A stretch of DNA of 45,780 nucleotides from Candidatus Kuenenia stuttgartensis. GTDB taxonomy: Bacteria > Planctomycetota > Planctomycetia > Pirellulales > UBA1268. Under the pieces are notes generated by a model. That model saw nothing but the letters and a program-made list of their open reading frames with translations. It ran no database searches and had not been told where the DNA came from. Positions 17,573 through 20,628 of the stretch are shown one piece after another; position 1 is the first letter of the stretch; each line of letters opens with the position of its first letter. The DNA is taken from contig CAMBSN010000014.1 of NCBI GenBank assembly GCA_945870505.1, positions 1-45,780 of the forward strand, in the 5' to 3' direction. The translations under genes and the position numbers were made by a program.

Positions 17573-18985
17573 ATGACCGCCTCGATCCGCCGCCAGACAC
17601 CGTACGTGTTTCACGGTCAGACCACGTCGCTGTGCGACGAGTGCCTGGCGCTGGTGCCGGCGAAGATCCTGATCGAGGACGGGCAGGTCTTCTACCAGAA
17701 GCGCTGCCGTGTCCATGGGACCCGGCGGGTGCTCGTGTCCACCGACGCGGCCTACTGGCGGCTCTGTCACGACTACCTCAAGCCCGGCGACCGACCGCTC
17801 GCCCTCCAGACGCACACCGAGCGGGGCTGCCCCTACGACTGCGGCCTCTGCCCCGACCACGAGCAGCACTCCTGCCTCGCGCTCATTGACGTCAACGAGG
17901 CCTGCAATCTCACCTGCCCCGTCTGCTTCTCCGACTCCTCGCCCCAGCGGCCGCTGCACCGGCCCCTGGCCGAGATCGAGCGGATGATGGACGTGCTCGT
18001 GGCGAGCGAAGGCGAGCCCGACCTCCTGCAGATCTCCGGGGGCGAGCCGACGATCCACCCGGAGATCCTGGAGATCCTCGCCGCGGCCAAGCGGCGGCCG
18101 ATCCGCCACGTGATGCTCAACACGAACGGCATCCGGATCGCCGAAGACGCCGAGTTCGTGGCCCGGCTCGCGGAGCTGCGGCCGGGCTTCGAGGTCTATC
18201 TGCAGTTCGACTCGCTCCGCCCCGCGGCCCTCGTGAACCTCCGCGGAGCCGACCTCACCCGCATCCGCCGGACGGCCCTCGAGAACCTGGAACGGGCCGG
18301 GATCTCCACGACGCTCGTTGTCGTGGTGAAGCAGGGCGTGAACGACGACGAGCTCCAGGCCATCGTCGATCACGCGCTGGAGTGGCGGTGCGTTCGCGGC
18401 GTCGTCTTCCAGCCCGTGCAGGATGCCGGCCGCAACGACGGGTTCGACGCCGCGACCGACCGGTTTCCGCTCTCGGCCATCCGCCGGCGGCTCATCGATG
18501 CGGGCGGACCCTTCGGGGAGGGGGACATCATCCCGCTGCCGTGCAATCCCGAGAGCATCGCCATCGGCTACGCCCTGCGGAAGGGATCGACGATCGCCCC
18601 GGTGACGGCGTTCTTTCCGCGGGAGCTGCTCGTAGAGGCCCTGCCCAACGCGATCACGTTCGAGAAGTATCCCGACCTCCACAAGCAGGTGCTCAATTTC
18701 TTCTCGCTCGCCACCACCGAGTGCAACAACGAAGCCCGGCTCGCCGAACTCCTCTGCTGCCTGCCCGAGGTGCCGCTGCCGGCGGGCCTGGGCTACGAGG
18801 ACACGTTCCGCGTGGTGATGGTGGAGTTCATGGATGCCCACAACTTCTGCCTCGGCCGTGTGAAGCGCTCCTGCATCCACTTCGTGACGCCGGACGGGAA
18901 GATCATCCCGTTCGAGACCTACAACCTCTTCTACCGCGACGCGGCCGCGAGGGCCCGGATGCAGCGCTCGCTGGAGGGTTCATGA
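17573..18985 (+). CDS. Radical SAM protein of the tetraether-lipid-synthase-like (Tes/MJ0619) family
   Basis: 470 residues. The radical SAM cluster motif is CNLTCPVC (C-x3-C-x2-C), followed by the glycine motif SGGEPTIHPE. Upstream are two extra cysteine modules typical of this family: a zinc-ribbon-like CDECLALVPAKI...CRVHG, and GCPYDCGLCPDHEQHSC. Cys-containing stretches near the C-terminus (ATTECNN, LLCCLPEV, FCLGRVKRSCIH) could hold auxiliary clusters. The archaeal member Tes joins lipid tails by radical C-C coupling; most bacterial relatives are unassigned, so lipid chemistry here is inference. The ATG at 17573 has GGGGAG 5 nt upstream; a GTG at 17546 is the alternative. Its stop overlaps the next gene, which encodes a membrane protein. 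Confidence 0.88.
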   Translation: MTASIRRQTPYVFHGQTTSLCDECLALVPAKILIEDGQVFYQKRCRVHGTRRVLVSTDAAYWRLCHDYLKPGDRPLALQTHTERGCPYDCGLCPDHEQHSCLALIDVNEACNLTCPVCFSDSSPQRPLHRPLAEIERMMDVLVASEGEPDLLQISGGEPTIHPEILEILAAAKRRPIRHVMLNTNGIRIAEDAEFVARLAELRPGFEVYLQFDSLRPAALVNLRGADLTRIRRTALENLERAGISTTLVVVVKQGVNDDELQAIVDHALEWRCVRGVVFQPVQDAGRNDGFDAATDRFPLSAIRRRLIDAGGPFGEGDIIPLPCNPESIAIGYALRKGSTIAPVTAFFPRELLVEALPNAITFEKYPDLHKQVLNFFSLATTECNNEARLAELLCCLPEVPLPAGLGYEDTFRVVMVEFMDAHNFCLGRVKRSCIHFVTPDGKIIPFETYNLFYRDAAARARMQRSLEGS

Positions 18986-19404
18986 GAGGCCTGTTGATCG
19001 TGCTCTGCTCGCTGGCCACCTTGGCGGCGGTCCTGGCCGGAGGGTGCGCCTTTCTGTTCACGGGTTTGGCGGCCGCCGTGGATCCGAATAAGGACGACTT
19101 TGTGGCGATGCTCGTCATCACGCTCCCAGTGCTCCTCGTCGCCGCCGTCGTGATTGGTGCCAACACCGCCTTGGTCGCCGCGATCCGTCAGAACCGCGCC
19201 CCGCGACGCAGCGGCTGGTTCGTGACGCTGGCCGTGATCGACCTTCTGGCCGCCTGTTGGATGTTCACCCTGGCGGGGGCGAGAGGCGTCCCGGGTTTTG
19301 AGTCCCTGCTGCTCCCGGTCGCGCTCGTGGCGAAAGGCGTACTCACGCTCCGGCTCCCGGCGAAGCCGCCACACCCGCCGCCGGCGGGGCCCGGTCGGGA
19401 GTGA
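18982..19404 (+). CDS. Small four-helix membrane protein (paralogue of the next gene)
   Basis: 140 residues with about four hydrophobic segments (near 3-32, 43-67, 79-98 and 102-122) and a proline-rich basic tail. The N-terminus has the pattern MRGLLIVLCSLATLAAVLAGGC, very like the next protein, with a cysteine that could be mistaken for a lipobox. No known family. Its ATG overlaps the radical SAM stop (ATGA), so production is coupled to that enzyme. Likely an inner-membrane partner; function unknown. Confidence 0.78.
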   Translation: MRGLLIVLCSLATLAAVLAGGCAFLFTGLAAAVDPNKDDFVAMLVITLPVLLVAAVVIGANTALVAAIRQNRAPRRSGWFVTLAVIDLLAACWMFTLAGARGVPGFESLLLPVALVAKGVLTLRLPAKPPHPPPAGPGRE

Positions 19405-19411
19405 CCCCATC

Positions 19412-19861
19412 ATGAGAGCCGTGCTGATCCTGCTGACGCTGACCGTGATTCTGGCGGCGTTGTTCTGCGGAGGCTGTTCCGTGCTTACGGTCGGCAAGTT
19501 CCTCTTTGATGGCCCCTGGCAGTATTTCGACGAGACTGCTGCCTGGATCACGGCGGGGGTGGGGCTGGCGGCCGTGGCCGTGCTGGTGGCGAACATCTGG
19601 GTCCTTCGATCCTTGCTTGGCGGGCGGGTTCCGCGAGGAAGGTCGCTGAGCAAGGGCGTCGTACTGATGCTGGCACTCGTCGATCTCGGGGCTGCTCTCC
19701 TGAGTCTCGGCTTGGTAGGACTGTTGGGGGGCTTGGGAGAGGTGTCGGGGCTCCTTGGAGTCGTCGTGTTCGCCGCCTTCGCGGCCAAGGGTCTGTTGAG
19801 CCTCCTCTGGGCCGCCTCGGCACCGCAAGCGGGTTCTTTCGAACCGCCCGCCTCACGATGA
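19412..19861 (+). CDS. Small four-helix membrane protein (paralogue of the previous gene)
   Basis: 149 residues. MRAVLILLTLTVILAALFCGGC matches the preceding protein in layout: an N-terminal helix ending in GGC, a short polar loop, a helix pair around a basic loop (RSLLGGRVPRGRSLSKG), a helix with VDLGAALLSLGLVGLL, and a last helix preceded by AFAAKGLLSLL that aligns with LVAKGVLTLRL of its neighbour. The tandem pair looks like an old duplication. It is 7 bp after the first copy, and its stop overlaps the start of the Lgt-like gene by 4 bp. Confidence 0.78.
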   Translation: MRAVLILLTLTVILAALFCGGCSVLTVGKFLFDGPWQYFDETAAWITAGVGLAAVAVLVANIWVLRSLLGGRVPRGRSLSKGVVLMLALVDLGAALLSLGLVGLLGGLGEVSGLLGVVVFAAFAAKGLLSLLWAASAPQAGSFEPPASR

Positions 19862-20628
19862 ACGTGCACACCGCGTTCGACATCGCCTCGGCCACGGCGG
19901 CGGCCGGCATGACGGTCGCCTGCTTCTTCTGGCGGCTCAAGGACGCAGCCGCGCGGATCGACCAGGCGGGCTTCGGCTACGCCTTCGCCCTTGTGGCCGG
20001 CGCGGCCGCTGGCGGCTACGCAGCCGGCACGGCCAACCTCTGGCTCTCCGGCGAGCCGGGCGTGGCCCGCAGCATCGTGGGGGCGCTCGCCGGCGGAATC
20101 ACCGCGATCGAACTCTTCAAGCAGGCCCGCGGCATCACCGGCTCGACGGGCATCATCTTCGTGCCGGCCTTCTGCACGAGCGTGGCCATCGGCCGCTGGG
20201 GCTGTTTCTATTCTGGTCTCACCGACCACACCCACGGCGCGGCAACGGCGGTCGCCTGGGGCCACGACTTCGGTGACGGCGTGCTCCGGCACCCGGTGCA
20301 ACTCTACGAGTCGGCCGCGATGGCCGCGTTTCTCGTCTCCGCCCTCACGATGCTCGCCCGCCGCGACCCCTTCTTCCTCCGCAACGGCTTCTACCTGATG
20401 GTGCTCTGGTATGCGGCGCAGCGGTTTTGCTGGGAGTTCTTCAAGCCCTATGCCCCGGTACTCGGCCCGCTGAACCTCTTTCACCTCATCTGCCTCGCCC
20501 TCATCGCCTACGCCCTGAGGATGATGACCAAGGAGCCACCCACCCAGCTCGGGGTCGCCCATGCCCCGGGAGCCGGCCTCGCTGGCCAAGCGCAGCCAGG
20601 ATGGCGAAGCGAGGCCAGCGCGGAGTGA
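19858..20628 (+). CDS. Prolipoprotein diacylglyceryl transferase (Lgt)-like membrane protein
   Basis: 256 residues with about seven hydrophobic segments. It resembles Lgt, which moves a diacylglyceryl group from phosphatidylglycerol to lipoprotein cysteines. The shared core is GRWGCF (the GRxGNF arginine region), RHPVQLYES, and the late GFYLMVLWYAAQRFCWEFFKP with its arginine. The HGGL motif with the essential His103 of E. coli Lgt is not present; the equivalent stretch reads SIVGALAGG. It may therefore be a divergent transferase, not the housekeeping Lgt. The last 25 or so residues (from about 232) are encoded by a dispersed repeat element and look like a foreign tail. Last gene of the coupled radical SAM / membrane-protein run. 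Confidence 0.82.
   Translation: MNVHTAFDIASATAAAGMTVACFFWRLKDAAARIDQAGFGYAFALVAGAAAGGYAAGTANLWLSGEPGVARSIVGALAGGITAIELFKQARGITGSTGIIFVPAFCTSVAIGRWGCFYSGLTDHTHGAATAVAWGHDFGDGVLRHPVQLYESAAMAAFLVSALTMLARRDPFFLRNGFYLMVLWYAAQRFCWEFFKPYAPVLGPLNLFHLICLALIAYALRMMTKEPPTQLGVAHAPGAGLAGQAQPGWRSEASAE

Follow-up and report, generated by a model that had tools for sequence, protein, structure and literature searches.

Gene content and layout of the locus

We analysed a stretch of planctomycete DNA of 45,780 nucleotides, hereafter the window, and examined four genes lying on its forward strand. The genes, together with the motifs and single codons discussed below, are as follows.

17573..18985, + strand: rSAM, radical SAM enzyme of the Tes/TrsS superfamily, 470 aa (PF04055 and PF23545; match to 7TOL)
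17633..17716, + strand: rubredoxin-like motif of rSAM, C21-x2-C24-x20-C45-x2-H48 (read from the sequence; invariant in the alignment of relatives; a GDGT-MAS motif)
17828..17869, + strand: N-terminal auxiliary cluster motif of rSAM, C86-x3-C90-x2-C93, with a nearby His (invariant in the alignment; a GDGT-MAS motif)
17903..17926, + strand: radical SAM cluster motif of rSAM, C111-x3-C115-x2-C118 (invariant)
18982..19404, + strand: M1, small membrane protein with ~4 TM helices, 140 aa (open reading frame; paralogue of M2)
19045..19047, + strand: Cys22 codon of M1, in LAGGC (invariant in the small-protein alignment)
19412..19861, + strand: M2, small membrane protein, 149 aa (open reading frame; paralogue of M1)
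19475..19477, + strand: Cys22 codon of M2, in FCGGC (invariant in the small-protein alignment)
19858..20628, + strand: LgtL, Lgt-fold membrane protein, 256 aa (Pfam LGT; match to 5AZB)
20077..20079, + strand: V74 of LgtL, equivalent of Lgt His103 in HGGL (from alignments)

The sequence GGGGAG is found upstream of the rSAM ATG at 17573. The stop codon of rSAM and the start codon of M1 overlap as ATGA (18982-18985), a gap of 7 nt lies between M1 and M2 (19404/19412), and the M2 stop and LgtL start share a second ATGA (19858-19861), so that the frames confirm the overlapping or nearly touching starts and stops described for these genes in a first-pass annotation. We infer that the four genes together make up a single copy of a dedicated membrane system with three components, namely LgtL, a Tes-like rSAM and small Cys proteins.

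The radical SAM enzyme and the Lgt-fold protein

In addition to its PF04055 and PF23545 domains, rSAM of the window carries all three N-terminal metal modules that were described for GDGT-MAS/Tes (PMC9433317). When compared with the PDB, it matched Tes (7TOL) with an E-value of 1.9e-64, the second-best match being 1.8e-4, and its AlphaFold model matched 7TOL with a Foldseek E-value of 1.3e-36 and a TM-score of 0.78. The motifs, the 7TOL match and the fold thus agree with the initial assignment of a radical SAM gene with Tes-family cysteine modules. On the other hand, rSAM scored 263 bits against the Tes model NF045702, under the equivalog cut-off of 450, and its best NCBIfam score, 290 bits against TrsS (NF045646), was also under the equivalog cut-off of 490. 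By alignment, Met439 and Tyr459 of Tes, both completely conserved in 1000 archaeal Tes homologues (PMC9433317), are replaced by V417 and F437, and the tree placed rSAM on a separate supported branch away from characterised Tes. Hence, the earlier reading was supported as to the Tes-superfamily enzyme, the Lgt fold of the last gene and the linkage across phyla, but its joining of lipid tails was not supported by the Tes score, the two substituted residues and the tree. Note that Tes variants at Met439 and Tyr459 remain active, both residues being dispensable in vitro, so that their absence does not exclude coupling.

LgtL scored 61 bits against Pfam LGT (PF01790; gathering cut-off 24.9) and 23.9 bits against the NCBIfam Lgt model TIGR00544, under the cut-off of 118.9. 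The LgtL model aligned with E. coli Lgt (5AZB) with a Z-score of 13.1 over 205 residues at 18% identity, and the runner-up had a Z-score of 5.7. In E. coli Lgt, His103 of the HGGL motif and Asn146 are essential, whereas LgtL has V74 and C116 at these positions; 29 relatives have V, L, M, T or I at the His site, and none of them has His. The last protein was therefore correctly described at first as resembling a diacylglyceryl transferase that lacks the HGGL His. Furthermore, Lys88 was invariant in the LgtL family alignment, and Lgt residues R143, E202, Y235, R239, E243 and R246 correspond to R113, E151, Y185, R189, E193 (E/D) and K196 (K/R) of LgtL, all of which are conserved. Specifically, in the set that forms the phospholipid site (Arg143, Tyr235, Arg239 and Glu243), R113, Y185 and R189 were invariant and E193 was Glu or Asp in 29 sequences.

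The missing HGGL His is a weak hint of altered LgtL function. The sole other LGT-family protein found in the genome, which is 87% complete, also lacks the His (Phe, in a by-eye alignment) and Asn146, indicating that His loss alone does not show loss of activity; His loss as proof of a new function was withdrawn for this reason. We also rejected an ordinary second Lgt, given scores far under the NCBIfam cut-offs and the presence of another LGT-family protein in the genome. As a separate observation, Lgt was not listed by Foldseek alone for the LgtL model and was recovered by VIA re-alignment.

Small cysteine proteins and the spread of the gene set

M1 and M2 are paralogues (33%, E 4e-10). No family was listed for either in Pfam or NCBIfam (0 in both), and the small proteins of the system gave sub-cut-off matches only in these two collections. 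The gene following rSAM encodes a membrane protein in 56 of 57 cases and begins with a 4-nt overlap in 48. GxC or GC was present in 55 of 56 next-gene proteins as compared with 20.5 in shuffles, and in other lineages a Cys lies within the last 22 residues in 35 of 38 proteins (10.9 expected). No such Cys-bearing small neighbour was found beside 12 rSAMs without LgtL. The tandem arrays, with up to eight copies (locus L136), are divergent and share mainly the Cys, suggesting that the small proteins are more substrate-like than a fixed subunit. The Cys is absent from a few of them (that of L050, three of the eight in L136 and the downstream frame of L129), and the Persicobacter small gene encodes just 59 aa. 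Invariant polar residues N61, D87 and K118 lie within the TM helices of M1/M2-type proteins, and Pro-rich or Zn-ribbon tails occur on small proteins. A PROSITE-style lipobox pattern was present in 40 of 58 type-A sequences; the full rule held for 26 of the 58, and for M1 but not M2. A Leu or other non-small residue precedes the Cys in about a quarter, and the hydrophobic stretch continues past the Cys. In this genome and three Alphaproteobacteria, no convincing unlinked M1/M2-type gene was found (one match, E 0.03). Judged from sequence, M1 and M2 belong to a third conserved component, a group of small membrane proteins that are often arranged in tandem and carry a Cys at the outer end of a TM helix, as predicted by hydropathy and charge only. 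The middle genes are thus copies of a conserved component whose GGC motif is invariant, and not the generic membrane proteins for which they were first taken.

The rSAM-LgtL pair was found in 78 of 80 fetched relatives, in all three positive genomes among 240 Alphaproteobacteria screened and in 26 of 31 Planctomycetota, these counts being non-independent as the loci are mutually related. The pair was also found in Actinomycetota and Bacteroidota, and versions of the gene set exist in at least four bacterial phyla. The gene order differs in blocks, being LgtL-rSAM-small protein in Alphaproteobacteria and rSAM-M1-M2-LgtL in the window. The co-occurrence check proposed in the first-pass annotation thus showed linkage of rSAM and LgtL across phyla in a block-variable order. 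A chance neighbourhood was rejected because the linkage in relatives is far beyond chance, and the neighbouring TatD, NuoN and thioredoxin-like genes were rejected as parts of the system because their conservation does not extend beyond the closest planctomycete loci. We found no description of the trio of LgtL, Tes-like rSAM and small Cys protein in the searchable literature, which excludes most subscription papers. The gene set looks like a so far undescribed system for the modification of membranes or lipids, with a putative function.

Candidate functions and comparison with known systems

We tentatively favour a dedicated system in which, going by the sequences and structural models, LgtL would lipidate the cysteines of the small proteins and rSAM would perform C-H chemistry on the lipid chain. 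One to eight small proteins per system, M1 and M2 in the window, would serve as protein substrates whose Cys is displayed where an in-to-out helix ends at the outer leaflet. A phospholipid, probably phosphatidylglycerol, would be held in the retained Lgt-type cavity of LgtL on the same face as the Cys, onto which LgtL would move a lipid group (diacylglyceryl, or acyl). rSAM would dock from the cytoplasm, perhaps on small-protein tails of the Pro-rich or Zn-ribbon kind, and abstract a hydrogen from the lipid chain, by which the tail would be joined or otherwise altered. This lipidation reading is supported by phospholipid binding in the active site of GDGT-MAS (PMC9433317) taken together with the conserved phospholipid-site residues of LgtL and the Cys linkage, and the lipobox-pattern matches also count for it. 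Conversely, the Cys-less small proteins and the 59-aa Persicobacter gene count against it, and the Cys might instead serve metal binding or packing. It also counts against this reading that rSAM is cytoplasmic whereas the Lgt site and the Cys are predicted to face outward, which makes access of both enzymes to one substrate hard to explain. The fuller proposal, an undescribed lipidation of membrane proteins in which an Lgt-derived transferase acts on the outward Cys before Tes-like alteration or coupling of the tail, possibly giving a membrane-spanning anchor lipid, appears somewhat unlikely.

Translational coupling of the genes, the invariant N61, D87 and K118 in TM helices, which suggest a structural role, and tails through which rSAM could dock would all suit small proteins that are stable subunits. 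In such a complex with LgtL and rSAM, free phospholipid would be modified: LgtL would present an outer-leaflet lipid, the small proteins would scaffold rSAM and the product would be a modified tail. We regard this as possible but doubtful, since subunits do not usually come in arrays of as many as eight divergent copies, and the Cys is the best-kept feature across lineages. It is unlikely that the system is a bacterial membrane-spanning lipid synthase, in which rSAM would couple tails as Tes does while an outer-leaflet partner lipid is held by LgtL. Aerobic carriers such as Caulobacter are not known to make membrane-spanning lipids, which counts against such a synthase. The Tes fold and N-terminal metal sites of rSAM, the activity of the Met439 and Tyr459 variants and the brGDGT synthesis proposed for bacterial Tes homologues (PMC8941075) speak for it; however, rSAM is far under the Tes cut-off and branches separately from Tes, its C-terminal Cys set is unlike that of Tes, and the Tes loci examined lacked LgtL and small proteins. 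Membrane-spanning lipids are a possible product that no evidence in this analysis favours.

The small proteins, being tandem, divergent and next to a radical SAM enzyme, also resemble precursor arrays, and the target of rSAM might be the small membrane protein, which would receive a RiPP-like thioether, a methyl group or another C-H modification close to its Cys, with LgtL just anchoring or lipidating the product. Methyltransferases adjoin rSAM relatives without LgtL, indicating that the superfamily acts on more than lipids. Nevertheless, we consider this rather improbable, because the nearest structure belongs to a lipid enzyme whose pocket is long and hydrophobic, there is neither a leader-like soluble peptide nor a peptidase, and the Cys is predicted to lie across the membrane from rSAM. 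Finally, the lipobox matches, including the full rule in M1, would suit ordinary lipoproteins of the housekeeping Lgt, leaving LgtL and rSAM with a separate function. This is very unlikely, given that M2 and more than half of the type-A sequences fail the full rule, a non-small residue precedes the Cys in about a quarter, hydrophobic sequence persists after it, and in other lineages it is near the C-terminus.

Bacterial 'Tes homologues' are in use to infer the makers of membrane-spanning lipids. Zeng et al. counted them at E < 1e-50 and identity > 20% (PMC8941075), and a Black Sea survey reported them in 110 of 684 Planctomycetota MAGs (PMC11868695). Such counts may mix functions, because a whole branch of the superfamily travels with Lgt-like and small Cys proteins. 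If the small proteins are indeed lipidated, the system would add to the known protein-lipidation pathways a new one that uses radical chemistry, and its presence in culturable carriers such as the Alphaproteobacteria Aestuariivirga litoralis, Tabrizicola rongguiensis and Caulobacter sp. Root343 makes it directly testable there.

Among known systems, the bacterial membrane-spanning lipid synthase Mss, for which the Tes catalytic architecture was proposed as common (PMC13274423), was studied with Ger and not with an Lgt-like protein. The TrsS radical SAM (seleno)protein gave the top NCBIfam score of rSAM; LgtL-less relatives beside a methyltransferase were also under the TrsS cut-off, so that the comparison covers the NCBIfam TrsS model and these sub-cut-off relatives. 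Tes/GDGT-MAS (MJ0619) shares with rSAM the fold, the rubredoxin-like site, the auxiliary cluster motif and the radical SAM motif, but rSAM differs in its score (263 vs 450 bits), the absence of Met439 and Tyr459, another C-terminal Cys set, a separate branch and its linkage to LgtL and small Cys membrane proteins. Likewise, LgtL shares with Lgt the fold and the equivalents of R143, E202, Y235, R239, E243 and R246, and differs from it in an aliphatic residue or Thr at the His103 site, Cys in place of Asn146, the invariant Lys88 and NCBIfam scores far under the cut-offs.

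The four-gene locus and linkage of rSAM with LgtL

The window corresponds to contig C14 in a fragmented, 3.35-Mb MAG, whose closest relatives, among the matches listed, are Planctomycetaceae MAGs. It contains a coupled run of genes for a Tes/TrsS-superfamily radical SAM protein (rSAM), two small membrane proteins (M1 and M2) and an Lgt-fold membrane protein (LgtL):

17573-20628, + strand: coupled four-gene run rSAM, M1, M2, LgtL

NuoN and TatD are encoded upstream of the cluster, and a thioredoxin-like gene lies downstream, as does a csrA-like gene (name assigned from sequence) on the opposite strand.

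A contig scan gave at least 552 confirmed relatives, and the best 80 of these were retrieved. With one or two exceptions, these 80 had LgtL near rSAM, located upstream and mostly overlapping in Alphaproteobacteria, and downstream, behind small genes, in the window's planctomycete clade. When 240 Alphaproteobacteria were sampled, rSAM (>800 bits) was detected in three genomes, one of which had been used to centre the sample, and LgtL (>300 bits) was detected in the same three, the next LgtL score being 66 bits. Furthermore, 31 of 294 Planctomycetota genomes had rSAM at ≥340 bits, with LgtL within ~5 kb in 26 of them; four of the other five apparently lay at contig ends, as read from positions, and one (G132) had none. 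Where LgtL scored ≥90 bits, it adjoined rSAM in 20 of 20 such Planctomycetota genomes. The pair was also present in records of Mycobacterium branderi, M. avium and Nonomuraea, as well as in Persicobacter. At the G132 locus (L114, contig C112), rSAM is from the LgtL-linked branch, no LgtL was found, and the gene for a ~299-aa membrane-anchored protein overlaps the rSAM stop by 4 nt.

Small Cys-bearing membrane proteins

M1 and M2 are paralogues and align with small proteins encoded immediately downstream of alphaproteobacterial rSAMs (23-56% identity to M1), G20, G21, C22, N61, D87 and K118 being invariant. No family was found for them in Pfam or NCBIfam, which gave sub-cut-off matches only. 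We counted next genes as ATG frames starting between -8 and +12 nt relative to the rSAM stop (n = 57), chosen without a Cys condition. A TM segment was present in 56 of the 57, and 48 started with a 4-nt overlap; a TM-bearing frame occurred at 3.6% of random positions. GxC or GC was found in 55 of the 56 TM-bearing proteins versus 20.5 in shuffles, with L/F at -4, G at -2, G or L at -1 and a small residue at +1 relative to Cys. The last charged residue was mostly 17-21 residues before Cys, and an in-to-out helix orientation is predicted from the flanking charges.

Distant planctomycete, actinobacterial and Persicobacter loci encode different small proteins, again with a membrane Cys, near the C-terminus. 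In 35 of 38 such proteins, taken from simple-script gene chains and perhaps including a few that are not real genes, Cys was in the last 22 residues, the expectation calculated from the proteins' other stretches being 10.9. Additional small proteins upstream of rSAM had the same ending, with Cys near the C-terminus. By contrast, none of 12 rSAMs without LgtL, Tes included, was followed by a Cys-bearing small protein. The largest arrays had six copies (locus L145) and eight (L136). At L136, the eight are different small membrane proteins between rSAM and LgtL, and several have N-terminal Zn-ribbon-like Cys pairs.

The LgtL site and possible roles of the cassette

LgtL matched Pfam LGT at 61 bits, and its AlphaFold model (pLDDT 90.7) gave Z 13.1 across 205 residues of E. 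coli Lgt. An alignment of 29 LgtLs, representing four phyla, showed K88, G112, R113, C116, E151, Y185 and R189 to be invariant; E85 was present in 26, and the His103 site was aliphatic or Thr in all 29. Mutations of R143, R239, E243, R246 and H103 in E. coli Lgt cause loss of function in complementation (PMC4728403), and N146A causes loss of activity (PMC8689077). The conserved and replaced residues therefore indicate that LgtL retains the lipid-site network but not two residues essential in E. coli. Note that this loss is an unsafe argument for a new activity, because the one further LGT-family protein detected in the source genome (L089; G000:C24:26696-27451, - strand) is also without both residues: in its translated motifs, GGLVVFGS ... 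GRVGCFLNGCC, read by eye, Phe stands in place of His103 and Cys in place of Asn146. Should L089 be the housekeeping Lgt, His would not be universal at the first of these sites.

These comparisons establish the parts of the cassette, their linkage, folds and conserved residues. As a mechanism, LgtL would bind phospholipid at a site predicted to lie on the same leaflet side as the small-protein Cys; rSAM would act on a lipid chain, and the small proteins would be substrates. That the small Cys proteins are substrates is the best explanation, if a tentative one; that they are stable subunits instead is little less likely. The main difficulty, shared by the two readings, is that rSAM is cytoplasmic and the Cys is predicted to be outward. 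The cassette parts are members of known superfamilies, and no description of rSAM, LgtL and small Cys proteins as a trio was found in the searchable literature.

Phylogeny of rSAM and comparison with Tes

In a 47-row tree, the window rSAM and two planctomycete relatives were nested within Alphaproteobacteria (99/97), which suggests transfer of rSAM into the window's lineage. Same-order and same-class planctomycetes (G121, G205 and G216) had a different LgtL-linked branch, and Tes clustered with haloarchaeal and Mycolicibacterium proteins without LgtL. The LgtL-linked label required four changes versus 14 in shuffles, with two rows scored as unlinked possibly reflecting contig ends or loss, and some joins on long branches.

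Three planctomycete loci (L130, L131 and L132) have two neighbouring divergent Tes-like radical SAM genes, then apparent short-chain dehydrogenase genes, without LgtL or small membrane proteins. A planctomycete protein at L140 (G033:C142) exceeds the Tes cut-off at 576.5 bits and is, by its sequence, a candidate for a bona fide Tes in a bacterium. In Mycolicibacterium and haloarchaeal replicons (L124, L125 and L127), a related radical SAM gene is directly 5' of a methyltransferase gene, with genes for CcdA, disulfide oxidoreductase, redoxin or DUF547 proteins nearby.

A sequence search of the PDB matched the window rSAM to Tes (GDGT-MAS, 7TOL; E 1.9e-64, profile match 2.9e-83), and the predicted structure matched 7TOL with TM 0.78 (Foldseek). 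Its bit scores were below the cut-offs for both TrsS (290; cut-off 490) and Tes (263; cut-off 450). All three N-terminal metal motifs are common to rSAM and GDGT-MAS. In the alignment, two C-terminal Cys of Tes are replaced by S433 and E448, and C324 is present in 30 of 30 LgtL-linked rows and in neither of two Tes rows. The C-terminal cluster ligands are not readable from the rSAM model because residues 360-404 are poorly modelled. Met439 and Tyr459 of Tes correspond to V417 and F437 in rSAM; since Tes variants at both positions retained activity in vitro (PMC9433317), the two replacements are compatible with tail coupling.
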